The position numbers and the translations under genes are program-made. Below are positions 35,868 to 50,241 of a stretch of DNA of 64,000 bases, in pieces. How positions within the stretch are numbered: the stretch's first letter is position 1; every line of letters begins with the position of its first letter. The notes beneath the pieces were generated by a model. That model was not told the DNA's origin, ran no database searches, and was given only the letters and a program-made list of their open reading frames with translations. Source of the stretch: an uncultured Psychroserpens sp. (GTDB lineage: Bacteria > Bacteroidota > Bacteroidia > Flavobacteriales > Flavobacteriaceae); assembly GCF_947492715.1 (NCBI RefSeq), contig NZ_CANLNS010000001.1, forward strand, positions 744,001 through 808,000, in the 5' to 3' direction.

Positions 35868-36758
35868 TCAACTAACCTTACTTTGTGCAATTTTGGATAG
35901 ATAGTAACGTGATAAAAAATCATAACATACCATTTCATTTAATCGGTTTTTAGACTTAAATACTCTATTCATAAGCATATGGATATAACTCGCCATTAAA
36001 TCATCTATATGTAATTCTAGTTTATGGTCTTGATTAAGTTTTAGAATACGAGAAGCAATTGTACTAATGTGGCGCTCCCTTTCTCTTAGGACATCTATTA
36101 TAGGTTCATACTCTGGAATATCGTGTTCTTTGAATGTTATAAAATTTGCAATTTTAGATCTGTCTTCTCTGTATTTATCATTTAATTGTTTTCCTAAAAA
36201 TTTGGTTTTTCCAAATTCTAAAGCAAACCCCGTTTTTAAGTCGTTTAATAGACTTTGCTTTCTAAGGCTAGAATACTCAAAACTTTCCAAGAGGGCATCT
36301 GTAGCCTTTAAAGCAAAAAGCCAACGTAATTCCTCACCTTCTTCACCTTCTATCATATCTATGAAATCAACAATCATTTTACTATCATGATAAAATAATT
36401 CTTCGGCTAATTCTATTGTATTACTGCCATATCTCTTTAACTCTCTCATATAAGTGTCTGACTGAACCTTCCAAATAAGACCTTGATGTATATACGCTTT
36501 TAGAAGTTCATTTAATTCATTGATTATCAACCCGACATCCTTTTTGTCAACACAGTAAAAACGTAATCTCAAATGGTATTTAGGGTCATTAAATCTTATA
36601 AAAAACCACTTATCAATAATCTTCTCTGCTATTAGTTTTTGAGTTAAAGGTTTGACGATTTCGGTTAAAATCACATCAGAAGTTTTTGGTCCTGAATAGA
36701 TTTTATAATACAACCAATGATCACCCAATATATATTTACTCTGAATCTCCTTATGCAT
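35868..36758 (-). CDS. LanB elimination domain protein (thiopeptide-type bacteriocin biosynthesis domain)
   Basis: 296 aa. 'GDHWLYYKIYSGPKTSDVILTEIVKPL' and 'WFFIRFNDPKYHLRLRFYC' match the SpaB C-terminal/thiopeptide-type biosynthesis domain, which in full LanB dehydratases removes glutamate from glutamylated Ser/Thr to give dehydroalanine/dehydrobutyrine. Here it is a separate protein whose start overlaps the stop of the N-terminal partner by eight bases, so the two are translationally coupled and together equal one LanB (about 1000 aa). Last gene of the lanthipeptide operon. Confidence 0.88.
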   Translation of the reverse strand: MHKEIQSKYILGDHWLYYKIYSGPKTSDVILTEIVKPLTQKLIAEKIIDKWFFIRFNDPKYHLRLRFYCVDKKDVGLIINELNELLKAYIHQGLIWKVQSDTYMRELKRYGSNTIELAEELFYHDSKMIVDFIDMIEGEEGEELRWLFALKATDALLESFEYSSLRKQSLLNDLKTGFALEFGKTKFLGKQLNDKYREDRSKIANFITFKEHDIPEYEPIIDVLRERERHISTIASRILKLNQDHKLELHIDDLMASYIHMLMNRVFKSKNRLNEMVCYDFLSRYYLSKIAQSKVS

Positions 36759-39009
36759 ATAAATGATGGTTTGAATTGTTTAGTTTTCGTTCATTAAAAA
36801 ATGACACAATAACCTGATTGGTGCAGTACTGCGAATTTTGTTTTACTGGACTTCCGCTGGCAAGCAAGAACTCTTTTAGCTGAAACATGCTCCTTTTGCG
36901 TACTAGGTTTAATAGCATTTTAACAGAGGTTAAGTTGTCCATATTCACTAAAAGCTGATTATCTCCATCTACTAATAAGACGTATTTAGGTATGTTTAAT
37001 TTATCTCTTAACAAGCTAATCGCCTCATTTAACTTAGTATCATCATGCTCGCTTTTAAGTAATGTATCTATTCTATTTTTTTTAATATACCATGTTGCTT
37101 CGTGTAGAATAAGGTTATTGTATTCTACTCTGGGTAGAAACTCATAGTTATCACTTAATGGTCCATAATCAAACCATATTTCGCTTCTGGTATGTTGGGT
37201 TTGCAGATCACATAAAAAATGATAAATAGGTAATGAATTATGACTGTAATTATGAGCATTAGATAAACGAGGTATGACTTCCTTATCATGTGTTTTAGAT
37301 CGCAATACAATCTCGGTGTTATTTTTTATAGAAATCATTAAATCGTCTATAGGTAGTTGGTAGTGTTCAGGTTTAAGAGATTTAGCCAAATAGGGGATTT
37401 CATATGCTCTTAGATTTGGACGCATCAAAATATTACCTACTCTAGATTCTGGTAAATGAACAATCTCAGCGATGATTTTGTTTGAATTCATCTGAGATTC
37501 AATATCTGAAATTTCCTGTACGAGCCTTTCTATTTCTTTATCTCCATGACAAAATCTTCCTAAGAGATTAGCAGCACTGGAGCTTCCAGATCCTTCAAAC
37601 TTAATTTTCTGTTTTCCTTCAATCTCAAAAATTTCAATCATACAGGAAAATGTATCCTGTAAATCATTCCAATTTTCATCTACATTTTCAAAATCATGTT
37701 TTGATATTGAAATGGTAGTTTCATTATTTTGAAAAGCGCTAATTAACTTTTTTTGAAGAAAGTCATGTACAGAAGACCATTTAATATCTCTTACATTATG
37801 CTTAGGTTTTTTTGATTCTAGAACGAGATTATCAACCAATGGATTTATATCGCCATGACCGTGATTTTGCTTATATCCTAATCCAATTTCTGGATCTAGC
37901 GCTTGGGACAACGGCACTTCATTTTCTTCAAATCGTTCGTAAAAAGCATCTCGAAACTTTGTTAATGCTGAGTTTTTTCTTTTAACATTGATTTTATTTA
38001 AAAATCGTAATCCATTAAGAAGGTCTTTAATAATATTTTTATTAAGCGTATTCGTTTTTTGACCAATAATCATATCGGTTTGAAACATGAATTTTGGGTT
38101 AATTTCTGTTTCAAAATCTTTGAGTAACGCAATAATGTCTTGATATGTTTTGGTGTTATTTCCTATGGTAGTGTCTATGACTTTAAGTTGGTCTTTGATA
38201 GTGTAAAGCTTTTGTGTAATACTTTCAACATTTTCTAGTTTATTGAGTACTGAAAACATTTGGTCTAAAAACTCTGGACCTGAAACCGAGGGTTCAAATT
38301 CACTAACAAGTAATTGGCTCGATACAAGCTGTTCTACATAACCGTATGCTTCTTCTTCCGTTACCTCATCACTCACTAGTTCTTTTACCAAATCCTTCAA
38401 CTGCGCTCCTGTTTTTGCACGCACTAAAACCTGTTCCAAATAACTCGTATGATCTACGGAAATAATATAATGATACCGTTTCCCTTTAATATACTTATAT
38501 TCAATATAGCGCAGTTGATTTGCTATTTTGTAAATGCTAGTGTTTGGGAAAAACAAAAGCTGTTTTTTTATATGTTCAATTTTAGTCAAATCTTGAGATA
38601 ATGCAACTAAATAGTTCATATCTAATCTGGTATGACGCTTATAATCTTCACATGCATCAAGATTTATTTTGGTGTTATCTTCAAATTGCCCAACCGAACA
38701 TCCAGCAAATAAACCAAAGGGTGTACATCTTGAAGACATTCGAGAGACATATTTTAATAATGACCATTTGAGTTTATCGATATCTTTTTTATTCTCAATG
38801 TCACCATTAACCCATCTATCAATAGCCTTAGACAAGGCTGGCGATGCTAGGAAGACAGCTTCTTTTATGCGAGAATCAGAACATATTGACCTAAACTGTT
38901 CATCTGAAACATATTGATTTTTAGTTATTTGTTTATAAAAATCAAAAGTTAACAGTGGACTTCTTAGTACATAACTCGAAAAACTTCTATACGGAATGCG
39001 GTTACCCAT
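36751..39009 (-). CDS. Lantibiotic dehydratase, glutamylation part (LanB N-terminal)
   Basis: 752 aa. Conserved LanB features are 'RSPLLTFDFYK' at the N-terminus, 'VSRMSSRCTPFGLFAGCSVG' near residue 100, 'HTRLDMNYLVAL', and 'SNAHNYSHNSLPIYHFLCDLQTQ' near residue 600. LanB transfers glutamate from glutamyl-tRNA to Ser/Thr of the precursor. The protein stops before the elimination domain, which is the next gene. Nine bases separate it from the intact LanC gene upstream. Confidence 0.9.
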   Translation of the reverse strand: MGNRIPYRSFSSYVLRSPLLTFDFYKQITKNQYVSDEQFRSICSDSRIKEAVFLASPALSKAIDRWVNGDIENKKDIDKLKWSLLKYVSRMSSRCTPFGLFAGCSVGQFEDNTKINLDACEDYKRHTRLDMNYLVALSQDLTKIEHIKKQLLFFPNTSIYKIANQLRYIEYKYIKGKRYHYIISVDHTSYLEQVLVRAKTGAQLKDLVKELVSDEVTEEEAYGYVEQLVSSQLLVSEFEPSVSGPEFLDQMFSVLNKLENVESITQKLYTIKDQLKVIDTTIGNNTKTYQDIIALLKDFETEINPKFMFQTDMIIGQKTNTLNKNIIKDLLNGLRFLNKINVKRKNSALTKFRDAFYERFEENEVPLSQALDPEIGLGYKQNHGHGDINPLVDNLVLESKKPKHNVRDIKWSSVHDFLQKKLISAFQNNETTISISKHDFENVDENWNDLQDTFSCMIEIFEIEGKQKIKFEGSGSSSAANLLGRFCHGDKEIERLVQEISDIESQMNSNKIIAEIVHLPESRVGNILMRPNLRAYEIPYLAKSLKPEHYQLPIDDLMISIKNNTEIVLRSKTHDKEVIPRLSNAHNYSHNSLPIYHFLCDLQTQHTRSEIWFDYGPLSDNYEFLPRVEYNNLILHEATWYIKKNRIDTLLKSEHDDTKLNEAISLLRDKLNIPKYVLLVDGDNQLLVNMDNLTSVKMLLNLVRKRSMFQLKEFLLASGSPVKQNSQYCTNQVIVSFFNERKLNNSNHHLYA

Positions 39010-39018
39010 AATTATAGA

Positions 39019-40230
39019 CTAGTTTATTATTAAACATTCATCCCAATGCGTATCGAAATCACTTAAATAACTAATCATTGCCAATCCAATGCCAGTTATT
39101 CCAGTGAGTAAAGAGGCATCATTAGACCAGGTTTCATTATCTGGATTCCACATTTTATAACCAGCAAAACCATCATCAAAACGTGCCATTTCTATGCCTT
39201 CATTAATCCAAAACTCCATGGCATCTTTAAAAACAGCATCGTTAGTTTCCCTGTAAAGTCTATTATAAATTAATGCATTACCAAAGGCTCCATGACATAA
39301 TCCTGCATCTTCAACTAGAGTACTTTTAGTTGTTCTTCTAGTGCTTGTATGCTTTAAGATTTCTAAAGCCTCCTCTTTTAAATTATGATCTCCTAAAGTC
39401 TTTGATGCTTTGAATAAGGCAACACCTATCCCCAAATCGCCATAACACCAAGCTATCCTACTTTTTCCTTGTGGTTTATCATCTAATGTTACCCAATTAG
39501 GAAACAAGCAATAGGCTTCTTTTTCGGTGCTTTTAAAGCTCTTTATATAGTTTATAGCACCAGTTAAAAGTGGCTCGGTTTTAGCTTTAAATTCGGCTTT
39601 TTCATGAAGTTTGGAAAGCATAAATACAATGCTAGATATACCATGTGATAAGCAAAGGTTATAGCCCTTTTCTACAGGCTGAAATGTTAATGTTGATAAC
39701 CACTTTAAACCATTTCCTTCTTTTCGTGAGTGGTCTTCTAAAAATGAGATAAACTCTAATAAAATTAGTCTATACTTTTCTTTGAGTTCAACAGAGTTTG
39801 TATTCTGATAACGATACAAAAAGTAATAGGCTTGCCCTATAGCTCCATGCAGAAAATCATAATTTTCTTGTTTAAAATTAGCATTTAAAACTGTGTATAA
39901 ATAATCGTCCAAATCTTTAAGTAAGTCATCACTGCTTACTTCAATAAATTCGTTCAGCTCCAAAAAATCTAAAGTCCATCCAAACCCTGCAATACCATTA
40001 GAATAAAGCGGTGAATTATAACCTTGGTTTATTTTTTCGACACAATGACCTAGTATCTGCGTCCCTAAATCGGCATGGTTTTCAACATCCAAATATTTCG
40101 AATAATAGAATTGAAATAATACCATACCTGATAGACCAGACGCCAATCCTATGTGTTGCTCATTAATATATTCTTTCTTAATTATTTTGCTAATCTCTGC
40201 CAGTTTGGCTTCTAAGAGATGTGTATTCAT
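39019..40230 (-). CDS. LanC-type lanthionine cyclase, intact zinc site
   Basis: 403 aa with the LanC alpha/alpha barrel repeats ('GLASGLSGMVLFQFYY', 'HGAIGQAYYFLYRY', 'LSHGISSIVFMLSK'). All three zinc ligands are present: Cys262 in 'WCYGDLGIG' and Cys312-His313 in 'LCHGAFGNAL'. LanC adds precursor Cys thiols to dehydrated residues to form (methyl)lanthionine rings. The gene lies directly upstream of lanB, and is the likely working cyclase of the cluster. Confidence 0.93.
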   Translation of the reverse strand: MNTHLLEAKLAEISKIIKKEYINEQHIGLASGLSGMVLFQFYYSKYLDVENHADLGTQILGHCVEKINQGYNSPLYSNGIAGFGWTLDFLELNEFIEVSSDDLLKDLDDYLYTVLNANFKQENYDFLHGAIGQAYYFLYRYQNTNSVELKEKYRLILLEFISFLEDHSRKEGNGLKWLSTLTFQPVEKGYNLCLSHGISSIVFMLSKLHEKAEFKAKTEPLLTGAINYIKSFKSTEKEAYCLFPNWVTLDDKPQGKSRIAWCYGDLGIGVALFKASKTLGDHNLKEEALEILKHTSTRRTTKSTLVEDAGLCHGAFGNALIYNRLYRETNDAVFKDAMEFWINEGIEMARFDDGFAGYKMWNPDNETWSNDASLLTGITGIGLAMISYLSDFDTHWDECLIIN

Positions 40231-40240
40231 AAGTTTAATT

Positions 40241-40408
40241 TTATCTGAAATAATAATCCATTACCATATAAAGTATTGGTTCGCCATCTATTTTAAGAAG
40301 TAACAAAGCATATAGAATTAGCACAATAACTAAGGACAAAATAATAAGCCCGTATTTTACAACAGCGAATCTATTTTTATCTAATTCTTTTTCTAAATTA
40401 TTTTCCAT
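40241..40408 (-). CDS. 55-aa single-span membrane protein
   Basis: ATG at 40408, one base after the stop codon of the ABC exporter; stop at 40241. Charged N-terminus (MENNLEKELDKNRF), then about 23 hydrophobic residues from 'VVKYGLIILSLVIVLILYAL', then a short polar tail. The close spacing implies co-translation with the exporter, and there is no HlyD-type adaptor in the cluster, so it may be an exporter accessory or an immunity peptide. I do not recognise the family. Confidence 0.7.
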   Translation of the reverse strand: MENNLEKELDKNRFAVVKYGLIILSLVIVLILYALLLLKIDGEPILYMVMDYYFR

Positions 40409-40409
40409 A

Positions 40410-42614
40410 TTATGATCCTAATTCTAATTGATTCTTGACAAGATTATAATAGTTTGATTTATTGTTAACCAAATCTGTATGTGATCCTAACTCTACAATT
40501 TCCCCTCCTTTTAATACAACAATTTGATCTGCGTTTTTAACAGTACTTAATCTATGCGCAATGATGACCACTGTTTTATCTTTAAAAAATGCCTGCAAAT
40601 TATTATGTATGATTTTTTCGTTTTCGGCATCTAAGGCACTAGTCGCTTCATCAAAAAAGATATAGTGTGGGTTTTTATAAACAGACCTTGCAATAAGTAT
40701 TCTTTGCTTTTGTCCGCCAGAAATACCATTTCCAGAAGCACCAATTTTAGTTTTTAATTTTTGAGGTAATCCTGAAATAAACTCTTCAATATTGGCTGTT
40801 TTAATTGCAAATCGCATTCTCTCCTGATCTATCTCTTCATCTCCAGTAGCGATATTTCTTTCAATAGTACCAGCAAATATGTATCCTTCTTGCATCACTA
40901 CGCCACAATTCTCTCTCCAGTTTTTTGGTGATATATTTAATAAGTTATGTTGATTTACAAAAATGCTTCCATGTATTGGGTCATAAAATTTTAGCAGAAT
41001 TTTCATTAGTGTGGTTTTTCCGCTACCACTAGCTCCAACAATAGCTGTGGTTTTTCCTTCAGGAATAAATAGGTTAATGTCTTTTAAAACAAAAGGCGAT
41101 TTGGGGCCTTCATATTGATAATCAAGATCATTTAATCGTATACCTTTTTCAACACCATTTTGATAATACAGATCCTTTTCACTTAGTATTATTTGTCCTT
41201 CTTTTTCCTCCTCTTCTTGATCTTGAACTTCACTTAAACGTTCCATGCTGAGCCTAGCATCTTGAAGCGATCTAAAAAAGCTAATTAATTGGTTTACCGG
41301 AGAGTTCATTTGACCAATAATATATGCTATGGCTAGCATTGATCCTAAAGTGATATTTCCAAAAATCACCTCTCTAGCTGCAATAAAAGTGACCAAAATG
41401 TTTTTAAGTTGATTAATAAAATTAAACCCCATTAATTGAAACTGATCTAATTTTAAAGCTCTAAGGTTAACGCCAAAAAGTTTCACTTGGATTGTCTCCC
41501 ATTCTTTTCTTTTAAAGTCTTCGAAATTATTCAGTTTAATCTCCTGAATTCCATTAATCATTTCATATATAGATTCTTGGTTTTCACCTCTTCGTTGGAA
41601 ACGATAATAATCTAAAATCCTTCTTTTTTTCAAAAAATATACAGACCATAATACTGCAACTAAGGTTAGAATGGAATACGCAACCACAATTTTGTAGTCA
41701 TAATACAACAGGACAAAAAAGAATATTGAAAAATTAATTATCGAAAATAGTGTCACTAATGACTGCGATGTTAAAAACTCTTCTATTCGTTCATGGTCTT
41801 GAATTCTTTGATTAAAATCACCAATGAGTTTAGAGTCAAAAAAGTTAATAGGGAGTTTTAGTATTTTCTTGAAGAAATCTGAAATAATCGAAATATTAAT
41901 CCTTGTTCCTATATAGAGCATAATCCAATTACGTACAATCTCAATAACAATAGAGCCTAAAAACAAAAACACTTGAGCCAGTAGAATAATAAAGACTATA
42001 CTCAAACTTTTACTCTCAACCCCTTTATCTATTAACGATTGTGTTAGAAAAGGAAAAATTAAGGTAAACAAACTTCCTGCTAAAAGCCCTAGAAATAGCT
42101 GAAAAACCTCTTTCTTATATGGTTTTAAAAATCCAATTAAAAATTTAAAATCTATACGTTTTCTTTTGATGACTTCCATCTCATGAAACGCTTCTGTTGG
42201 ATGCAGAAAGAGTGCTACGCCTTTATTATTTTCGGTAAGCCATCTAGACTTAAAATCTTCTTCATTTAAAGAAATTAAACCATGAGATGGATCTGCAATT
42301 TTATATTTATATTTTCCTGTGAATATATTTTTTTTATGGTCATAGAGTACTACAAAATGATTTTGATTCCAGTGAAGTACGCAAGGAAAGGTACCTTCAA
42401 TATCAAAAGTTTCGAGATCTAGCATACTTGCATGTGTACTAAATCCTATTTTTTCTGCAGCTTCAGAAATACCTCTCAGACTCACGCCATCGCGCTTTAA
42501 ATATGAAATATTCCTGATATAGTCAATAGGATGTTTCTTTCCAAAATAGGCAGATATCATTGCAATACACGCTGGACCGCAATCCATTTGATCATGTTGA
42601 GGAATTAACTTCAT
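40410..42614 (-). CDS. C39-peptidase ABC exporter (lanthipeptide leader-cleaving transporter)
   Basis: 734 aa. Residues 1-140 form a C39 double-glycine peptidase with Cys12 ('QMDCGPAC'), His86 ('NQNHFVVLYDH') and Asp108 ('IADPSHG'). A membrane domain follows (about 155-450), then an ATPase with Walker A 'GASGSGKTT' at 527-535, signature 'SGGQKQR' and Walker B 'YIFFDEATSALDA'. It should cut the precursors after their GG and export the products across the inner membrane. Confidence 0.95.
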   Translation of the reverse strand: MKLIPQHDQMDCGPACIAMISAYFGKKHPIDYIRNISYLKRDGVSLRGISEAAEKIGFSTHASMLDLETFDIEGTFPCVLHWNQNHFVVLYDHKKNIFTGKYKYKIADPSHGLISLNEEDFKSRWLTENNKGVALFLHPTEAFHEMEVIKRKRIDFKFLIGFLKPYKKEVFQLFLGLLAGSLFTLIFPFLTQSLIDKGVESKSLSIVFIILLAQVFLFLGSIVIEIVRNWIMLYIGTRINISIISDFFKKILKLPINFFDSKLIGDFNQRIQDHERIEEFLTSQSLVTLFSIINFSIFFFVLLYYDYKIVVAYSILTLVAVLWSVYFLKKRRILDYYRFQRRGENQESIYEMINGIQEIKLNNFEDFKRKEWETIQVKLFGVNLRALKLDQFQLMGFNFINQLKNILVTFIAAREVIFGNITLGSMLAIAYIIGQMNSPVNQLISFFRSLQDARLSMERLSEVQDQEEEEKEGQIILSEKDLYYQNGVEKGIRLNDLDYQYEGPKSPFVLKDINLFIPEGKTTAIVGASGSGKTTLMKILLKFYDPIHGSIFVNQHNLLNISPKNWRENCGVVMQEGYIFAGTIERNIATGDEEIDQERMRFAIKTANIEEFISGLPQKLKTKIGASGNGISGGQKQRILIARSVYKNPHYIFFDEATSALDAENEKIIHNNLQAFFKDKTVVIIAHRLSTVKNADQIVVLKGGEIVELGSHTDLVNNKSNYYNLVKNQLELGS

Positions 42615-42684
42615 ATATCTTAAACACTTTGTTTTTAAATGGCCTTCATTCTCACTTTAGCAACTACTAAAGTTCAATACCATA

Positions 42685-43653
42685 TTAGTTAACTGTTACT
42701 TCTTTTTGTAGATTAAATTTTTCGCTAATTGCGTTAATATTATCTAGCATTTGTTTTGGATCATCTGTGAGGTCATGAATTATAAATTCGTCAACTCCAT
42801 ACAAATTCTGATATTCCAATAGCATATCGTGTAAAGAATCAATGGTAACAGCAAAAATTTTAAACCCTTCATTTTCTCCTTGACCATAGTGCTGTTTGAG
42901 ATGACTTAATTCTTTTTGAGCTTCAGCGATTGTGTTTTCCATACAAATTGAAATTCCAACATTCACTTTAGGGTATACCTTATGTTTTTCAAAAAAATCT
43001 TGTTTAAATTGCAAGAGTTCTTCTTTTTTATAGTCATCATCTCCTGGGAGCGAATGAAATAACGACCTGGAGTAATTTAATCCATACTTAATCGCTGTTT
43101 CAACATTTCTATATGAGGTTGATAGGTACCACATTTCAGGAGGTTTTCCTCCAAATGGTGGAATAACAATTTCGTTTTCCTGGAGATTTTTCTTTTCATT
43201 ATAGAAGAGATCATAAATGAGCTTTAGCTTATCATCAAAATCTTCTCTAAAGCCTTGTCTACTTTTTAAATCTCTATCCATCTTAACCACATCCTTGGTT
43301 TCTACAAGTCCGCTTCCTTTAGCCAAGCCTAAGTCAATCCTGTCGTAAAACATATTATTCATTAACTTATAATTTGTTGCCACTGGATAAGCATCATGAA
43401 TTAAAATTGTAGAACCTGCAGAGCCTACTTTTATATCATCAGTCATTCCTGCTATAATACCTATTAATAGATCCGGGTTTGTAAACGCTGTTGTGGTTAG
43501 TGGACCGTGGTGTTCTCCTAACCAAAACCTTGAAAACCCTAGTCTATCTGCTTCAACGGCATACTCAATAATTTCTTCAATTGTGGCCATACTATTTTTA
43601 TCAATTCTATAGCCATATTCTAATAGTCCTATTTTAATCTCTTCGTTTATCAT
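42685..43653 (-). CDS. Luciferase-like (LLM) flavin-dependent oxidoreductase 1
   Basis: 322 aa. 'IKIGLLEYGYRIDKNSMATIEEIIEYAVEADRLGFSRFWLGEHHG' and 'RIDLGLAKGSGLVET' are characteristic of the MsnO8-like LLM group. The fold binds a flavin and does monooxygenation or reduction. It is a paralog of the next gene upstream, and their reading frames overlap by four bases. In a lanthipeptide cluster such enzymes are candidates for tailoring: LLM-type reductases acting on dehydro-residues are known in some lanthipeptide pathways, but the reaction here cannot be read from sequence. Confidence 0.85.
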   Translation of the reverse strand: MINEEIKIGLLEYGYRIDKNSMATIEEIIEYAVEADRLGFSRFWLGEHHGPLTTTAFTNPDLLIGIIAGMTDDIKVGSAGSTILIHDAYPVATNYKLMNNMFYDRIDLGLAKGSGLVETKDVVKMDRDLKSRQGFREDFDDKLKLIYDLFYNEKKNLQENEIVIPPFGGKPPEMWYLSTSYRNVETAIKYGLNYSRSLFHSLPGDDDYKKEELLQFKQDFFEKHKVYPKVNVGISICMENTIAEAQKELSHLKQHYGQGENEGFKIFAVTIDSLHDMLLEYQNLYGVDEFIIHDLTDDPKQMLDNINAISEKFNLQKEVTVN

Positions 43654-44597
43654 GCTAAAGCCAATAAATTAAATTTTTCACTTATGAGTTCTGCATTTTT
43701 AATCTTGGCATCATTTGTTACTGCAAAATCATATATAATAAATTCATCAACCCCGAAGTCTACCTGGTAAGACAATAACATCTCGTGCATAAGATCTATA
43801 GTGGTTGGAATAATCCTAAACGCCTCTCGTGAATTTGCCTTTGTTTCAGCAACAAAATCATCTACTTTTTTTGTGGCTTCTTCAATAGTATTTCCTATAT
43901 ATACTGCTAAAGCTAGAGCAACTTCTGGGTATTGACCATGCTTTTCAAAATACAATGACTTACATTCTAAAAGCTCATCTTTGCTGAACTTTATTTCTCT
44001 TCCAGTACCATGAAATATGGACCTACAGAAATTTAACTTATGCTCTATCACAGTATCGAAACTGCGATAAGATCCTGATAAGTACCATAAATCCGGAGTA
44101 GAACCGCCAAGAGGTGGGATGAGGAGTTTATGTTCTTTTAAATTCTTTTCTTCGTTATTAAATAGGTCTACAATACTTTTTAGGTTATCATCAAAAATTT
44201 TAAAACTCGTATCGACGTTTAGGTTTTCGTTAGCTAGTTTCATAATAAGTTTACTATCTGGAATACCTTTAGACAGACCCAAATCTATCCTATCGGTATA
44301 AAGGTTGTTGAGCATTTTAAAATTTGTGGCCGTAGAATATGGTGAGTACAGACTAATAGACGTTCCTGCTGTTCCTACTTTAATTCTTTCGGTCATACCT
44401 GCTAATATGGTAAGTAAGATTTCTCCATTAGAAAATGGATGATTAGGATAAGTATAATGGTGTTCGGCTAACCAAAATCTTGAAAATCCTCTATTTTCAA
44501 CTTCAATGGCATAGTTTATTATTTGTTCGATAATACTTAAACTATCTGTTTTCTCTCTATATCCAAGTTCTATAATTCCTAATTTAATTTGTCCCAT
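43650..44597 (-). CDS. Luciferase-like (LLM) flavin-dependent oxidoreductase 2
   Basis: 315 aa. 'IKLGIIELGYREKTDSLSIIEQIINYAIEVENRGFSRFWLAEHHYTYPNHPFSNGEILLTILAGMTERIKVG' aligns closely with its downstream partner over the whole length, so the pair arose by duplication. The two may work as a heterodimer, as luciferase alpha/beta does, or on different substrates (inference). Same operon as the LanC-like gene, which ends 66 bases upstream. Confidence 0.85.
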   Translation of the reverse strand: MGQIKLGIIELGYREKTDSLSIIEQIINYAIEVENRGFSRFWLAEHHYTYPNHPFSNGEILLTILAGMTERIKVGTAGTSISLYSPYSTATNFKMLNNLYTDRIDLGLSKGIPDSKLIMKLANENLNVDTSFKIFDDNLKSIVDLFNNEEKNLKEHKLLIPPLGGSTPDLWYLSGSYRSFDTVIEHKLNFCRSIFHGTGREIKFSKDELLECKSLYFEKHGQYPEVALALAVYIGNTIEEATKKVDDFVAETKANSREAFRIIPTTIDLMHEMLLSYQVDFGVDEFIIYDFAVTNDAKIKNAELISEKFNLLALA

Positions 44598-44662
44598 ATT
44601 GTGTGTCTTATTACGTATTAATAGTTGATATGTTAAGTGTTAACTCAAGGCTTTTGATGTGT

Positions 44663-45835
44663 TTAATAAAAGTTTAGAAAACGTAAATAGTCGTGTCCTA
44701 GGTCTTTTTGTTGCGACATTAGCATGATACCTATACCGCAAATGCCTTCGGAAAACGACAAGTGCGTATAATCATGTTGCGCATTATAATTAGAAAGGTA
44801 ACCTGCCCATTCTGATTTTTTATTGTCTTTATTTAAAGTGCTGAATCCCCAATAATTTACAGCCTCATCTAACGTTGGGTTTTTAAGTTTTGCATTTGTC
44901 TTACTAAACAATGCGTGTAGACCTGACGAACCATAAAATAGGCTACCGTCTTTGGTATACTTCTCTTCATCATCTCTAAATTTTGCTGCGTTTTCTAAAA
45001 TCTCGTTTCCAATGGACAGAAGGTCGTCATTTTGCAAAATTAGTCCTGCATTATAAAATGTATACCCTATCCCAATATCTCCATATGCTAAATCTTGATA
45101 ATTTAATTTCTCTCGTTCATTGGCTTCAAGTCTAAACCAATTAATTCCTTTTTTTTCATTGAATTCATACAGAAAATTAAGCCCTTTTAATAGTATTGTT
45201 TTGAGGTTTTTATATGGCACTTGTTTTGAATAGGCCAATAACAAAAAGTTGATGATGCCAGCTACGCCATGTGTAACTCCAAGTTCAACTTCTGGTTCTT
45301 CAGGGTTTTTAATAACAGACTCCCAGTACGCAAAATTATCAACTGTTATGGCTTGTTTTTCGATGGATGATATGAGCTCTAAAAGTATTGGGTTGGTATC
45401 TATAAACTCAGACCTATTTAAAAAGTAATATCCTGCTTTTACAGCGCCCAACATTGGGTCTAGATTGTTTTTATTGACTTCTTCTAATAAAAAATCTTTT
45501 ATAATCTCATCTGAGTCTACCAGAAGGCTATTAATATCATCATTATCAACAATACCTTGTTGAAATAAAAAGAACAAATAGTCTCCAAGATCAATAATGT
45601 TAGAAATAATGTTAGTTCCTTTATAATGACTTCCAATACCTTCAATACTTTTTTCCAAATACGATATCACGTCATTTAAGTAGGTATCATCGTTGGTGTA
45701 CAAAAAGTAATAATAGTGATACAGGGAAAGGCCTAATAGACCATCTGTAATTCCCATATTAATGAACTTAGATTCATTATTAATGAGCGTGTCTCTTATT
45801 ACATGTGGTTTTATGTTAATATGCTTTGTTATCAC
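44663..45835 (-). CDS. LanC-like protein without zinc ligands
   Basis: 390 aa from GTG at 45835, which overlaps the last 20 bases of precursor E; the first ATG (Met27 equivalent) would cut off the first helix. LanC barrel repeats are present ('GITDGLLGLSLYHYYYF', 'VTHGVAGIINFLLLAYSK', 'AYGDIGIGYTFYNAG', 'YGSSGLHALF'). The three zinc ligands are not: 'WCYGD' is 'LAYGD' (Ala250) and 'LCHG' is 'LFYG' (Phe300, Tyr301). It cannot bind zinc like LanC, so a chaperone, substrate-presenting or regulatory role is more likely than cyclisation. First gene after the precursors. Confidence 0.85.
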   Translation of the reverse strand: MITKHINIKPHVIRDTLINNESKFINMGITDGLLGLSLYHYYYFLYTNDDTYLNDVISYLEKSIEGIGSHYKGTNIISNIIDLGDYLFFLFQQGIVDNDDINSLLVDSDEIIKDFLLEEVNKNNLDPMLGAVKAGYYFLNRSEFIDTNPILLELISSIEKQAITVDNFAYWESVIKNPEEPEVELGVTHGVAGIINFLLLAYSKQVPYKNLKTILLKGLNFLYEFNEKKGINWFRLEANEREKLNYQDLAYGDIGIGYTFYNAGLILQNDDLLSIGNEILENAAKFRDDEEKYTKDGSLFYGSSGLHALFSKTNAKLKNPTLDEAVNYWGFSTLNKDNKKSEWAGYLSNYNAQHDYTHLSFSEGICGIGIMLMSQQKDLGHDYLRFLNFY

Positions 45836-45995
45836 CTTGATTTTCTTGGGTTTCTGAACAATTAGATCTAGTACGACAAGAATACAATAAGCAAGAACCA
45901 GCTGCTAAATTTTCACCTTCAAGAGCTGATTCTTGTTTTTGAAGATTAGAGATTACCTGTTTATTTAATTCTAATTTTTTGTTTAGACTAATCAC
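45816..45995 (-). CDS. Lanthipeptide precursor E (GTG start, diverged leader)
   Basis: 59 aa from GTG at 45995; upstream in frame comes a stop, so no ATG is available. The leader follows its siblings: 'VISLNKKLELNKQVISNLQ', but ends 'EGENLAAG' where the others have 'KGG', so GG is replaced by GE. The core is 'GSCLLYSCRTRSNCSETQEN' with the shared S-C-x-x-[FHY]-[ST]-C motif and a third Cys. The stop lies inside the LanC-like gene (20-base overlap). Missed by usual gene callers because of its length and GTG start. Confidence 0.75.
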   Translation of the reverse strand: MISLNKKLELNKQVISNLQKQESALEGENLAAGSCLLYSCRTRSNCSETQENQGDNKAY

Positions 45996-46006
45996 TCTTT
46001 TGATTA

Positions 46007-46195
46007 TTATTGTTCTTTATCTTGTGTTTTTTGTGGACCACACGCACAATGCGTTGCATTCATATGACAAGAGAAAATACAACAGGAACCTCCAGGTGCC
46101 TGACCTCCTTTAATGTTCGACAATTTCTCTTCTTGTAATTTGCTTATTACTTCTTTATTAAGCTGAAGTCCTTTATTAAGTCTTATTTTTTTCAT
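46007..46195 (-). CDS. Lanthipeptide precursor D
   Basis: 62 aa. Leader 'MKKIRLNKGLQLNKEVISK' continuing 'LQEEKLSNIKGG', then core 'QAPGGSCCIFSCHMNATHCA' ending 'CGPQKTQDKEQ'. Five Cys and several Ser/Thr make this the most Cys-rich core of the five; the extra 'ATHCAC' segment could form additional rings. It starts 35 bases after precursor C ends. Confidence 0.9.
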   Translation of the reverse strand: MKKIRLNKGLQLNKEVISKLQEEKLSNIKGGQAPGGSCCIFSCHMNATHCACGPQKTQDKEQ

Positions 46196-46230
46196 AATAC
46201 ATAAGGTTTAGTGTGTTATTATTTAAGGAG

Positions 46231-46401
46231 TTATACTTCTTCTTTTTCCTTTTCTTTTTTTGTTGCGGTATTACACGTGTGTAAAAAGCAAGATCCAGCA
46301 GCTCCCATACCTCCTTTAACGTTTGACAGTTGATGATCTTGAAGTCTAGTAACAACTTCTTTACTAAGACGAAGCGTTGTATTAAATTTTATTTTTTTCA
46401 T
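46231..46401 (-). CDS. Lanthipeptide precursor C
   Basis: 56 aa. Leader 'MKKIKFNTTLRLSKEVVTRL' then 'QDHQLSNVKGG'; core 'MGAAGSCFLHTCNTATKKEK' ending 'EKEEV'. It differs from A and B at many leader positions, keeps GG, and uses Thr at the second ring position. Too short for a 60-codon ORF cut-off. Confidence 0.88.
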   Translation of the reverse strand: MKKIKFNTTLRLSKEVVTRLQDHQLSNVKGGMGAAGSCFLHTCNTATKKEKEKEEV

Positions 46402-46439
46402 GATAATTTGGATTTATATGTTTTGAAATGAAAGAAGAT

Positions 46440-46467
46440 AAACAGCTAGTAATTATACTAGCTGTTT
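46440..46467 (-). terminator. Hairpin between precursors B and C, possible attenuator
   Basis: On the minus strand AAACAGCTAGT and ACTAGCTGTTT pair over 11 bp around ATAATT, followed by a T/C-rich stretch (ATCTTCTTTC). It begins 18 bases after the precursor B stop. It may be a partial terminator that makes A and B more abundant than the genes downstream, or an RNA-stabilising 3' end. Confidence 0.6.
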
Positions 46468-46485
46468 ACTTATTAATCTAAGAAA

Positions 46486-46650
46486 TTACAGCTCTTGAGG
46501 CGCATCTTTTTTCTTAGTGTTACATGAGAAGATTCCACATGATCCAGCGGCAGCCATACCACCTTTAACATTTGCTAATTGATCTTCTTGTAATTTACTT
46601 ACAACTTCTTTGTTTAGTTGTAACCCTTTGTTTAATTTGATTTTTTTCAT
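46486..46650 (-). CDS. Lanthipeptide precursor B
   Basis: 54 aa from ATG at 46650; an upstream in-frame ATG at 46689 would add an unrelated hydrophobic stretch that the siblings lack. Leader identical to A over all 31 residues (starts MKKIKLNKGLQLNKEVVSKL, ends ANVKGG); core 'MAAAGSCGIFSCNTKKKDAP' ending 'QEL'. Two Ser and two Cys sit in the motif S-C-G-I-F-S-C, allowing up to two thioether rings. Confidence 0.92.
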   Translation of the reverse strand: MKKIKLNKGLQLNKEVVSKLQEDQLANVKGGMAAAGSCGIFSCNTKKKDAPQEL

Positions 46651-46741
46651 AATAAATGATTTTAAAATTAATGAATGAATAAGATACAAGTAGCCTGGTT
46701 TTATCTATATACCAACTACTTATGGACATCTTTATAAGATG

Positions 46742-46912
46742 TTATGCTTGCTCTTGAGGCGTATCTTTTTTCTTTTTTGTGTTACATGAGAATAATCCAC
46801 ATGAATCGGCTGGTGCAAGACCACCTTTAACATTTGCTAATTGATCTTCTTGTAACTTACTTACAACCTCTTTGTTAAGTTGTAACCCTTTGTTTAATTT
46901 AATTTTTTTCAT
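46742..46912 (-). CDS. Lanthipeptide precursor A
   Basis: 56 aa, first of the array. Leader is that of B, residue for residue; core 'LAPADSCGLFSCNTKKKKDT' ending 'PQEQA'. The 33 or so bases before the start codon are also nearly the same as those before B, showing a recent duplication of the whole unit. Too short for a 60-codon ORF cut-off. Confidence 0.9.
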   Translation of the reverse strand: MKKIKLNKGLQLNKEVVSKLQEDQLANVKGGLAPADSCGLFSCNTKKKKDTPQEQA

Positions 46913-46983
46913 AATAAATGATTTTAAATTAATGAATGAATAAGCTATCTTTTTATGTCATAGAGCTTCTATTTGGACGTCTC

Positions 46984-46997
46984 AAACTTGCAAGTTT
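46984..46997 (-). promoter_or_regulatory. Palindrome upstream of precursor A, candidate operator and -7 region
   Basis: AAACTTGCAAGTTT is a perfect 14-bp palindrome 71 bases upstream of the precursor A start. On the minus strand it overlaps CAAGTTTG, one base off the TAnnTTTG box, so it could be a regulated internal promoter for the precursor genes. Confidence 0.45.
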
Positions 46998-47045
46998 AAT
47001 TTTCAATATGTTTTAGGTTTTATGGCTGTTAAGACCTACCCTTAT

Positions 47046-49448
47046 TTAGTTTCCTGTTCTTTCTTTTTCATCTTCGTTACCGAAATCTTTTCGATTCACT
47101 CTTATTTTTTTATTTCCGAAGCTGTATCGTAAAGACACTCTTAATCTTCGGGAATCATAATAGTTTTCATATGTTGTTCTTACACCATTACTAAATGCTG
47201 TAACCTCTGTAATTTGGCCTTTGAATAGATCACTTCCTGTTATGGTTAATTGTAAATCTCTTTTCAGAAAGAAAAATTTAAAAGAGACATCTACACTAGA
47301 GCTTGATGATGTTTTATAAATATCATAAACGCCAGCAAAATTGTACCAGGCATCAATACTTGATATAATGGTTCGGTTATCATTCAAAACAAAACTATTG
47401 CTAGTTGAGATGTATGTATTTACACCATTTCGTTTGTCATTTATAAAACTTAAAAGTGCCTCTGTATATCTGTAGTTAATATTAAGGGTATTCACACTTT
47501 CCCAGCCTTTCAATTTGTTGAATGTATACGACTCTGTAAGCCCAACAGTATAGCTATCATAATAGTTTTGAGGAACCACACTTCTTACTCCTGTTTGATT
47601 ATCTACGGAAAGTATTTGCCCAAAACCATCCTTTATTTGCGAAAAATACAGGCTACTCACCCAGTTTTGTTTATGGATATAGGTGAACTCTAAATTGTCT
47701 GAAAATGAAGGTTGCAAAAACGGATTTCCTTCTATAAGTAGATAGGGGTTTTGTGTAATACGAAACGGATTGAGATATTCAAAAGCTGGTCGTGATATAC
47801 GTTTATTATAGCTCAATGAAAATATATGATCTTCACTAGGCACATAGTTAATATAGGCACTAGGAAATAATTTTAAATAATCATTTTCATTGGTTTGATT
47901 TAGTTGTCGTGAAACGCCTTCGGTTGTTGTATTTTCAAATCTTAAACCAACTTTAGCACTCCATTTATCATTAAAACTTTTACTCGCTGACACATAAAGT
48001 GCTGTGTTGGTTTCCCTATATTCAAATTGATTGGTTTGGTTTATATCTAAAATTGGCGCACCCGAAGTTGTATCAAAAAAACTGACATCATTATTGGTGT
48101 TTATAAATGATAGTTTACCACCAAAATTAAGATCGATTTTTTCTAACGGATATTCAACATCTGCCTTAAATGAATAATTGTCTACATTTTGTCTTCCGTC
48201 ATTTTTGCCAGCATTAAAACTATTTGGTGTTTCTTGTCCGTTATCAAAAAAATTAGACGAGTTATATACCCTAGAACTATTATCTATAAAGGTGAAATAG
48301 TCTAGATTAATAGAGATGTTTTTTCCAATAGAATCTAACTGATAACTGGAATGAAAATTAAGGGAGTGTAAAGGACTTGATTGGGTAATTTTTGATTGAG
48401 AAACGACAATAGAATCTATAGCAGAAGTTGCCTTATTGATAATATTTGTTCTATCGTTTTTGTTTTCTATCCTTGTATCATCATATCCCAATTGGTATTG
48501 AAAACCAGATGATAATTTATCATTCCATTGGTAATCAAGCGCTATTCGGGCGCTTACGCTATTATCATAAAATACGCGTCGAGGGTTTTCACTATCCCAA
48601 AGTTGATCTTCAAATTCAAACTCATTGGTATCTGTAATTTGCTTCGAACCTTTGTCATAAGATCCATTGACATAAAGCGAAGTTTTGTTTTTTCTGTACC
48701 TAAAACTCCCAGCTATATTACCATCTGGATAAGTATATTGGGTATAAGTCCCTCTAACACTAGACCTCCAACTATTTCTAACACCTTTCTTATATATTAT
48801 ATTAATTAATCCGCTATTTCCTTCGGCTTCATATTTTGCAGGAGGGTTAGTAATGATTTCAATTTTCTTAATCTCTTCGGAAGGTATCGACTTCAAGTAA
48901 TTTGTTAAATCATCTCCAGATAAGTTGATAAAATTCCCATCAACCAAAACTCTCATATTGCTTTTCCCAAGCATAATGATTTCATCATTTTTGAGCCTAA
49001 GATAAGGTGCAACCTTCAAAATATCCGTCACATCTCCACCTGATGCAGAAATGGAGTTTTCAACATTAAAAACCAGTCTGTCAACTTTCTTTTCAATTAG
49101 ATTTTTTCGGGAAGAAATAACCACTTCATCCAACTCATTTCTACTTGGATATAATGTAATTACACCTAAATCTAGACTTTCTGCTAAAGTTATATTTTTG
49201 GTATTTGTTTCATAGCCAATGTAACTTATACTAAGTTTATAGTCACCCGAAATGGCTTGTATTTTAAATCGTCCGTTTTCATCGGTAACAGTTCCAGAAA
49301 TAGCTTCACCATTAGCCTTAGATAAAACAACATTTGCATAAGCAATAGCAACTTGTGAAGAGTCGTTTACAACGCCCTTAATTTCTGCTTGAGAATGTGC
49401 CAAATTGGTTACTAAAAAAAACATAAAAACTAATGGAAATACTTTCAT
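47046..49448 (-). CDS. TonB receptor-like outer-membrane protein of the lanthipeptide operon
   Basis: 800 aa. Signal peptide (1-19), CarboxypepD_reg-like domain (about 22-105, 'AEIKGVVNDSSQVAIAYANV', 'RNELDEVVISSRKNLIEKKVDRLVFNVENS'), plug domain ('SMRVLVDGNFINLSGDDLTNYLKSIPSEEIKKIEIITNPPAKYEAEG'-type text) and an OMP_b-brl_3-like barrel ending 'RRLRVSLRYSFGNKK'. Same strand and 133 bases upstream of precursor A. Likely handles the peptide, or a signal for it, at the outer membrane; uptake versus release cannot be told. Confidence 0.85.
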   Translation of the reverse strand: MKVFPLVFMFFLVTNLAHSQAEIKGVVNDSSQVAIAYANVVLSKANGEAISGTVTDENGRFKIQAISGDYKLSISYIGYETNTKNITLAESLDLGVITLYPSRNELDEVVISSRKNLIEKKVDRLVFNVENSISASGGDVTDILKVAPYLRLKNDEIIMLGKSNMRVLVDGNFINLSGDDLTNYLKSIPSEEIKKIEIITNPPAKYEAEGNSGLINIIYKKGVRNSWRSSVRGTYTQYTYPDGNIAGSFRYRKNKTSLYVNGSYDKGSKQITDTNEFEFEDQLWDSENPRRVFYDNSVSARIALDYQWNDKLSSGFQYQLGYDDTRIENKNDRTNIINKATSAIDSIVVSQSKITQSSPLHSLNFHSSYQLDSIGKNISINLDYFTFIDNSSRVYNSSNFFDNGQETPNSFNAGKNDGRQNVDNYSFKADVEYPLEKIDLNFGGKLSFINTNNDVSFFDTTSGAPILDINQTNQFEYRETNTALYVSASKSFNDKWSAKVGLRFENTTTEGVSRQLNQTNENDYLKLFPSAYINYVPSEDHIFSLSYNKRISRPAFEYLNPFRITQNPYLLIEGNPFLQPSFSDNLEFTYIHKQNWVSSLYFSQIKDGFGQILSVDNQTGVRSVVPQNYYDSYTVGLTESYTFNKLKGWESVNTLNINYRYTEALLSFINDKRNGVNTYISTSNSFVLNDNRTIISSIDAWYNFAGVYDIYKTSSSSSVDVSFKFFFLKRDLQLTITGSDLFKGQITEVTAFSNGVRTTYENYYDSRRLRVSLRYSFGNKKIRVNRKDFGNEDEKERTGN

Positions 49449-49557: not shown

Positions 49558-50241
49558 TTATATAAACCCTTTATCTTTAGCCACCAATAGTAGTTCTCTA
49601 TCGTCTACACTCTTGATATTAAAAAGGTGTTTAAGGTGTCGCTTTCTTTTTTCGATTCCAGCTATGGATAAAGGCAAGATATTTGGTAAATCTTTCATTC
49701 TTGTTCCAATAGATAATTCGTATAAAATTTTTCTATCAATATTATCTAATAAGAAATCATTGGCTACTTGTTTTCGAAGAAGTCTGATAACCGTTTTACT
49801 ATAATAAGGTGGATCGTTTATTATAGTATCAATAGTTTCTACTAGTTCTTTTGGAGTAATATCATTTTTAATTAAAAAACCATCTGGATTTAAACTCTTA
49901 AAAATACTATGAACCCTATAATTGTCATTAAAGGTTGTTGAAACAATTATTTTAGTATTAGGTAACAGTTTATTGATTCGTAATCCTAAATCTTCCCCTG
50001 ATATAATTTTTCCGTCTTTAGAAGGTGGCAGTTTTATATCCAGAAAAACAATATCAAGAACTTTCTTTTTCGTAAAAATATCATTTATAACTTCCATTGA
50101 AGTATCACAGTCCTGTACGCAACGTATAGAAAAGCTAACCTCATCATGAGCTTTGCTATAATAATTGAATGCGGTTTTATAAGCTTCGGTAATAAGTGGA
50201 TGATCATCTATAATAAGAACTGAATATTTTCTATTTTCCAT
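49558..50241 (-). CDS. LuxR/NarL-type response regulator
   Basis: 227 aa. Receiver with Asp12/Asp13 ('LIIDDHP'), phospho-Asp68 ('IVFLDIKLPP') and the conserved Lys ('GFLIKND'). The C-terminal HTH ('DRKILYELSIGTRMKDLPNILPLSIAGIEKRKRHLKHLF') is LuxR-like but unusual in wording. It is 12 bases downstream of the histidine kinase and ends before a terminator; it is a likely controller of the lanthipeptide operon. Confidence 0.85.
   Translation of the reverse strand: MENRKYSVLIIDDHPLITEAYKTAFNYYSKAHDEVSFSIRCVQDCDTSMEVINDIFTKKKVLDIVFLDIKLPPSKDGKIISGEDLGLRINKLLPNTKIIVSTTFNDNYRVHSIFKSLNPDGFLIKNDITPKELVETIDTIINDPPYYSKTVIRLLRKQVANDFLLDNIDRKILYELSIGTRMKDLPNILPLSIAGIEKRKRHLKHLFNIKSVDDRELLLVAKDKGFI

Follow-up and report, generated by a model that had tools for sequence, protein, structure and literature searches.

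A class I lanthipeptide operon of Psychroserpens with a LanC-like protein that lacks zinc ligands beside two luciferase-like flavoenzymes

Many Bacteroidetes genomes carry class I lanthipeptide clusters, those of the pinensins among them, with LxLxKx5L leaders that contain a Gly-Gly (GG) site, C39 proteases and a LanB split over two proteins (PMC7268733). Here we analyze a 64,000-nucleotide stretch from an uncultured Psychroserpens sp. (contig NZ_CANLNS010000001.1; the whole stretch is called the window), in which a lanthipeptide operon occupies positions 35868-49448 of the minus strand with all genes co-directional. The operon has the leader, the GG, the C39 exporter, the split LanB, and a LanC in common with those clusters and so belongs to a type already described in Bacteroidota, but it adds a second LanC without zinc ligands (LanC2), two luciferase-like flavoenzymes (LLMs), and cores with a fixed S-C-x3-S/T-C pattern (PMC7268733). 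The original prediction of a five-precursor class I lanthipeptide cluster in a flavobacterium is borne out by family matches, by NF038153 matches for all five precursors, and by an orthologous operon in Psychroserpens luteolus, and every gene that it named is present on this single strand, within the coordinates that it gave; it was silent on the missing zinc ligands of LanC2, on the core pattern, and on the missing GG of the fifth precursor. Its remark that class I lanthipeptides of Bacteroidota are few is right for isolated compounds but not for genomes, where clusters are many (PMC7268733), and, like the original prediction, which could match the cores to no described compound, we found none with these cores in the open-licence PubMed Central (PMC) literature.

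Loss of the zinc ligands is known from the class III cyclase ThurKC, which has Ser, Phe, and Asp in their places and requires the Phe and the Asp for cyclization (PMC10604976). The Ala-Phe-Tyr of LanC2 loosely resembles this site, sharing the ligand loss and the Phe at the second position, but LanC2 is a stand-alone protein beside a LanB, has Tyr and not Asp at the third position, and keeps the equivalent of NisC His212. Bacteroidales clusters, too, are reported to encode LanC-like proteins that lack zinc motifs (PMC10352776), but in a different setting, with radical SAM genes nearby and no LanB. The “B-Unk” synthetases combine, as here, a LanB with a cyclase whose zinc triad is undefined; the list of peptides predicted for them has 14 entries, and words beginning with “Bacteroid” are absent from the main text of that paper (PMC11251773). 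Lanthipeptides of Chryseobacterium OV715 and of Runella, made in Escherichia coli, likewise come from LanA, LanB, and LanC of Bacteroidota and are reported to have three thioether rings each, but they were obtained with refactored LanA, LanB, and LanC genes, and the word “luciferase” is absent from that main text (PMC9993889). Chitinocin of Chitinophaga flava was unusable as a product relative, its sequence being unsolved in PMC10239826.

LLM reductases of lanthipeptide clusters have been named LanJC on the basis of product masses that fit the conversion of one Ser to D-Ala (PMC7268733), and LanJC is stated to be F420-dependent (PMC13348032). As with the LanJC of birimositide (PMC7268733) and with MaeJC and WmnJC (PMC13348032), the LLMs of the window are luciferase-like proteins (PF00296) in a lanthipeptide cluster; they differ in that the cluster is class I, that there are two copies, that no F420 gene was found, and that reduction is here a prediction. 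Another enzyme, FltJA from a lanthipeptide cluster of Flavobacterium terrae, is NADPH-dependent and forms D-amino acids (review, PMC13348032). In the open-licence PMC literature we found no report of a zinc-less LanC together with LanB and LLM.

The zinc site of LanC2 and its clade

Two LanC-like proteins are present in the operon, as had been predicted, but they are not equivalent: LanC1 has the Cys-Cys-His (CCH) zinc triad, and the equivalent residues of LanC2 are Ala, Phe, and Tyr (AFY), so that all three zinc ligands are gone. The stand-alone LanC with a zinc triad by which class I is recognized is thus LanC1 and not LanC2, although LanC2 belongs to the same LanC-like family (PF05147), has this as its only Pfam domain, and is free of the kinase/lyase fusion of class III LanKC. 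All 13 aligned LanC2-type rows retain the equivalent of NisC His212 (the roles of His212 and Asp141 in NisC are given in PMC9889658). Throughout, a LanC is called zinc-less when it has no more than one of the three ligands; the first Cys is retained in some relatives.

Within the genus, LanC2 is found in 2 of 23 Psychroserpens genomes, that of the window and that of P. luteolus (locus L063). P. luteolus is also the only one of the 22 other genomes to have the entire operon, with six precursors there and five in the window. Identity between the two is 79-95% for the enzymes, the exporter, and the small membrane peptide, and 75% for precursor A5; with this recurrence, the operon is far beyond chance. 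When the window is compared with P. luteolus, LanC2 has a ratio of nonsynonymous to synonymous substitution rates (dN/dS) of about 0.06, and those of the remaining operon genes lie at 0.02-0.09 where computable (dS of the histidine kinase is not), with dS saturated. This purifying selection indicates that LanC2 is a maintained protein.

A contig search with LanC2 alone as the query returned no relatives, and a search with a four-row alignment of LanC2-type sequences returned 19 loci. Loci L075-L077 and L079-L081 were rejected because the match is an ordinary CCH LanC; the match in L078 is itself CCH, but a LanC2-type copy is also present at that locus. We found 19 LanC2-type clusters, all zinc-less (the window, L063-L074, L078, L112-L115, and L121). 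In a tree of 51 LanC proteins, the 14 proteins with Tyr for His form one clade (support 100/99), which spans Flavobacteriaceae, Weeksellaceae, Sphingobacteriaceae, and Chitinophagaceae, with a further relative in Spirosoma; two more Tyr-bearing rows (SYY) fall outside the clade, within the partner-LanC group.

Among 395 genomes drawn evenly from the class, 30 had a match (39 matches in all), and the 30 typed loci, one per genome, comprise 4 zinc-less (AFY, MFY, PNY, and CTY), 25 CCH, and 1 partial. LanC loci without an LLM (L028-L043 and L045, from 12 genomes of the family) are CCH in 17 of 17, with LanB within the fetched stretch for 10 of the 17. When 18 genomes were searched with PF05147, seven had no LanC with a full zinc triad: G562 (Flavobacterium profundi), G706 (Myroides NP-2), G707 (Flavobacterium SLB02, with a decayed cluster), G708 (Flavobacterium NRK F7), G711 (Pedobacter ISL-64), G698, and G950. 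Completeness is 99-100% for G562, G698, and G950, the three of the seven that this figure covers, and triad typing left out some further LanCs in G609, G709, G710, G712, G713, and G714. The genomes of Myroides NP-2, Pedobacter ISL-64, and G698 each have a single PF05147 match, a LanC2-type protein, and all LanCs found in Flavobacterium G562, G708, and G950 are without the triad.

Association of LanC2 with LLMs and a core motif

An intact LLM accompanies LanC2 in 12 of the 19 clusters (the window, L063-L066, L068-L070, L078, L114, L115, and L121), a remnant in one (L067), and none in six (L071-L074, L112, and L113). The LanC2 triads of the 12 are AFY in three, MFY and CLY in two each, and NLY, ALY, SIY, LFY, and VIF, the last with Phe in place of Tyr. 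Their partner LanC is CCH in six (the window, L063, L064, L070, L078, and L115), zinc-less in five (L066, L068, L069, L114, and L121), and absent in L065. L068 and L069 are near copies, so the 12 clusters are not independent, and L067 (Flavobacterium SLB02) stands outside the count, its LLM and C39 being remnants, while its lone core has the motif given below. Searches from the LLM side (395 class and 395 phylum genomes, in overlapping draws) found six genomes besides that of the window. Among 72,556 plasmid records, relatives of LanC2 (E<1e-10) occur in two and relatives of the LLMs (E<1e-30) in the same two. The first is a 25.6-kb plasmid of Chryseobacterium sp. G0186, on which 14 class I lanthipeptide genes are annotated, and the second, from Spirosoma oryzicola, has six; this independent collection is consistent with the link between LanC2 and LLM.

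With respect to the precursors, we observe [S/T]-C-x3-[S/T]-C in 30 of 31 cores from the first nine clusters with both LLM and LanC2 (shuffled cores average 0.18) and in 0 of 20 cores from 14 ordinary clusters without LLM; Cys directly follows Ser/Thr in 81 of 94 cases in the former and 24 of 106 in the latter. Counted per cluster, the motif is present in 8 of 9 versus 0 of 14 (Fisher P = 2e-5, uncorrected for shared descent). Three clusters found after the motif had been defined have it in all of their precursors (14/14, 6/6, and 2/2; 22/22), which brings the totals for the 12 clusters to 52 of 53 precursors and 11 of 12 clusters, and Asn follows the second Cys in 38 of 51 eight-residue pieces. 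The motif is found in 0 of 3 cores of Pedobacter and Chitinophaga (L071-L073), in 0 of 2 in L113 (G609), and in 0 of 2 in clusters with LLM and without LanC2 (L055 and L057). Where LLM or LanC2 is missing, a rescan for short frames with the motif picked up the L112 precursor and, in L074, an antisense-looking frame. Core counts omit L059 (no precursor), L074 (no sure precursor), and L060, whose two candidate precursors are without the motif; precursors were sought by leader and then by motif rescan, and L029, L031, and L040 of the 17 LLM-less family loci yielded none.

LLM1 and LLM2 group with LLMs from other lanthipeptide clusters, and the solved structure nearest to LLM1 by sequence is 4us5. 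In quick trees of LanB, C39, and LLM, together with that of LanC, the LanC1 and LanB of the window nest among ordinary Flavobacteriaceae clusters with split LanB, and its C39, LanC2, and both LLMs nest with LLM clusters of Chryseobacterium, Myroides, and Flavobacterium, whose LanB is in one piece where intact (it is broken into frames in Myroides and meets the contig end in L066). The simplest reading would be that LanC2 travels with LLM, exporter, and precursor and not with a given LanB; against a clean module swap, the C39 group includes the LLM-less Chitinophaga polysaccharea (L074), and the C39 of Cochleicola lies apart on a long branch. The F420 gene cofD (PF01933) was found in 0 of 8 genomes, a control being found in 10 of 14, and F420 use is therefore unlikely.

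The 25.6-kb Chryseobacterium plasmid of L114 (NZ_CP033919.1) is largely taken up by a single lanthipeptide cluster, in which there are 14 precursors, and also encodes two zinc-less LanCs, two lantibiotic dehydratases, a kinase/LytTR pair, and a HigB-type toxin. In genome G690, the LLM adjoins a third LanC-like kind with the triad Ala, Cys, Ser (L060:9631-11693). The decaying LLM/LanC2 cluster of Flavobacterium sp. SLB02 (L067:4887-11849) lies between transposase-like genes.

Gene content of the operon

The order of transcription is histidine kinase (HK), response regulator (RR), outer-membrane (OM) barrel, A1-A5, LanC2, LLM2, LLM1, C39, 55-aa peptide, LanC1, LanB-N, and LanB-C (Table 1). The unit thus extends upstream past 49448 to RR and HK, both also present in the P. 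luteolus orthologue; intergenic gaps are at most 133 nt, and three gene pairs overlap. The two LanB domains that mark class I, PF04738 and PF14028, are near full-length and split over two proteins.

Table 1. Features of the lanthipeptide operon, in order of transcription (positions in the window)
Feature	Position	Strand	Evidence and remarks
TPR sensor histidine kinase (HK), partner of RR	50254..52329	-	HisKA_3, HATPase_c, TPR
Response regulator (RR)	49558..50241	-	PF00072
Outer-membrane beta-barrel with CarboxypepD_reg domain	47046..49448	-	PF14905 (OMP_b-brl_3) 4.3e-86
Precursor A1	46742..46912	-	NF038153 50.3 bits; core after GG LAPADSCGLFSCNTKKKKDTPQEQA
Precursor A2 (ATG start)	46486..46650	-	NF038153 50.5 bits; core MAAAGSCGIFSCNTKKKDAPQEL; 98% identity in P. 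luteolus
Precursor A3	46231..46401	-	NF038153 39.0 bits; core MGAAGSCFLHTCNTATKKEKEKEEV
Precursor A4	46007..46195	-	NF038153 44.3 bits; core QAPGGSCCIFSCHMNATHCACGPQKTQDKEQ
Precursor A5 (GTG start)	45816..45995	-	NF038153 22.8 bits; contains GSCLLYSCRT; without GG
LanC2, without zinc ligands	44663..45835	-	PF05147 84.3 bits, cut-off 23.2 (LANC_like 7.9e-24); 390 aa
LLM2, luciferase-like flavoenzyme	43650..44597	-	PF00296 (Bac_luciferase) 8e-21
LLM1, tandem relative of LLM2	42685..43653	-	PF00296 5.5e-22; 46% identity and 4-nt overlap with LLM2
C39 peptidase-ABC exporter	40410..42614	-	PF03412, PF00664, PF00005
55-aa peptide, single apparent membrane helix	40241..40408	-	94.5% identity to P. 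luteolus counterpart
LanC1, zinc triad intact	39019..40230	-	PF05147 158 bits (LANC_like 3.1e-46)
LanB glutamylation part (Lant_dehydr_N; LanB-N)	36751..39009	-	PF04738 2.8e-145
LanB elimination part (Lant_dehydr_C; LanB-C)	35868..36758	-	PF14028 4.8e-70, TIGR03891 3.7e-72; 8-nt overlap with LanB-N

All five precursors score above the curated cut-off (22 bits) of the NCBIfam model NF038153, “class I lanthipeptide,” A5 barely so, and the S-C-x3-S/T-C pattern is common to all five. A predicted leader cut after GG fits four of them and not A5, whose 3′ end overlaps the start of LanC2 by 20 nt; its SCLLYSCR recurs in P. luteolus and in L064 (9829-10020), where GG is absent too. The core of A1 differs from its P. 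luteolus counterpart only in the final Ala; its calculated mass is 2679.300 Da, or 2643.278 Da if both motif Ser are dehydrated, 2645.294 Da after a single reduction, and 2647.310 Da after two, and it contains two more Thr. The start of A2 is best placed at the ATG at 46650, giving 54 aa. The array contains a 160-nt unit in four copies, three of them 67-89% identical to the reference copy, from which we infer expansion by duplication.

What had been called a TonB-like barrel is an OM barrel, but Pfam reports no plug domain in it at E up to 0.01; its function would be passage, uptake, or immunity. A like barrel is present in the fetched stretches of 10 of the 12 clusters with LLM and LanC2 and unseen in those of L066 (a short contig) and L121. 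Searches of Pfam and NCBIfam gave no match for the 55-aa peptide. Orthologues of RR, which probably controls the operon, adjoin the clusters of P. luteolus and Cochleicola and are unseen in the remaining LLM and LanC2 stretches compared. An Rfam scan of 33000-53500 gave no match at gathering scores, and a scan for Bacteroidetes-type promoters gave no full match in the gaps inspected and nothing upstream of A1, only -7-like elements upstream of HK and of the OM barrel.

Elsewhere in the window, the downstream flank (34338-35672, plus strand) encodes a protein that bears a secretion tail and matches M10 weakly, below the cut-off. The 2207-aa product of 55798-62421 shows matches to FG-GAP, SpvB-type, and RHS repeat models, and for the 802-aa product of 29546-31954 Pfam gave nothing at E up to 0.001.

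Proposed pathway and alternatives

We consider it probable that the operon makes class I lanthipeptides through the combined action of LanB, LanC1, and the LLMs, with LanC2 as a metal-free cyclase or helper, and the product is likely to be thioether peptides with D-Ala or D-2-aminobutyrate (D-Abu). Going by its family, the split LanB would dehydrate Ser/Thr of the S-C-x3-S/T-C cores using glutamyl-tRNA, and LanC1 with its zinc site would close at least one thioether ring. The two LLMs may then reduce leftover dehydroalanine (Dha) and dehydrobutyrine (Dhb) to D-Ala and D-Abu in the manner of LanJC, probably with flavin mononucleotide (FMN), which is favored over F420 because cofD was not found. 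LanC2 would act without metal on this precursor type, either as a class III-like cyclase or as a helper that presents the peptide for the LLM step; we lean slightly toward the cyclase, because LanC2 relatives are the sole LanC-family protein in some genomes. The C39 exporter is predicted to cleave the four leaders that have a GG and to export the products, the OM barrel may serve at the outer membrane, and the HK/RR pair is a candidate regulator of the operon. The wider proposal, that zinc-less LanC, LLM, and S-C-x3-S/T-C core define a LanB-dependent family of Bacteroidota with metal-independent ring closure or another reaction, we put forward tentatively.

Several observations weigh against this picture. 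LanC2 occurs without LLM in 6 of the 19 LanC2-type clusters, and since most of the 12 clusters with both came from LanC2 searches, they are a biased draw. Only two of the six genomes found from the LLM side have LanC2 (G562 and G950); G690 has the other altered LanC, and G339, G522, and G365 have only CCH LanCs near the LLM. The Myroides core reads S-C-x5-S-C despite the presence of LanC2 and LLM, and L112 (G698), with LanC2 and no LLM found, has the motif in one of two precursors. The equivalent of NisC Asp141 is variable among LanC2-type rows, and the LanC2 of the Chryseobacterium plasmid has Val-Ile-Phe, beside a partner LanC with Ser-Phe-Phe, so that a general-base role of Tyr would not extend to all members. 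Enzymes of the JA type are zinc-dependent dehydrogenases, and FltJA is probably one of them; it therefore supports D-residues in the lanthipeptides of flavobacteria and not the assignment of the LLMs, which themselves score under the cut-off of their best NCBIfam model, the MsnO8 family.

A LanC2 that is a pure pseudoenzyme, binding the leader or dehydrated core and passing it to LLM or C39 while LanC1 makes the rings of the window, is quite conceivable, if somewhat short of even odds; it coincides with the helper arm of our preferred explanation, so the two estimates overlap. The loss of all three zinc ligands, trees that place LanC2 with LLM and C39 and not with LanB and LanC1, and the existence of a version whose former zinc site holds neither acid nor base (VIF) all fit such a role, but Myroides NP-2, Pedobacter ISL-64, and G698 yielded no zinc cyclase that a LanC2-type protein could assist. 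The chemistry of the LLMs is a separate question from that of LanC2, and the odds of its readings do not compete with those of the other alternatives. They could be oxygenases acting, for example, on thioether sulfur or Cys, in keeping with the sub-cut-off MsnO8 match and with the names of most of their nearest PDB chains by sequence (luciferase-like or alkanal monooxygenases), but this is doubtful, as the product evidence for lanthipeptide LLMs in the literature consulted is of reduction to D-Ala (PMC7268733).

Products without lanthionine, in which LanB and LLM convert Ser/Thr to D-Ala/D-Abu, Cys form disulfides, and the LanCs are helpers, would accommodate both the 81 of 94 core Cys that directly follow Ser/Thr and the triad-less LanCs of G562, G708, and G950. 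We regard this as rather unlikely, given the CCH LanC in the clusters of the window, P. luteolus, L064, Chryseobacterium paridis, Cochleicola, and Spirosoma and the purifying selection on that of the window. That the cluster is an ordinary class I cluster with an unimportant, decaying spare LanC is very improbable: its gene content fits described Bacteroidetes clusters (PMC7268733) and duplicates lose zinc ligands easily, but the low dN/dS of LanC2 and a clade that reaches across four Bacteroidota families and a Spirosoma relative, with 19 clusters of the type, speak against it.

If LanC2 is indeed a metal-free cyclase of LanB-dependent clusters, it would parallel, in a LanB setting, the metal-free cyclases of class III and would suffice as the only LanC of a genome, and its family would be one that occurs on both plasmids and chromosomes and is joined to varied LanB/LanC backbones. 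To our knowledge, LanC enzymes outside class III are considered to depend on zinc for catalysis, and a conserved, triad-less LanC clade beside LanB, which comes with a predictive core motif and is in some genomes the sole LanC found, makes metal-independent class I thioether formation directly testable. The LLMs, in turn, are candidate D-residue-forming flavoenzymes that seem to be independent of F420 and may be of use for peptide engineering.

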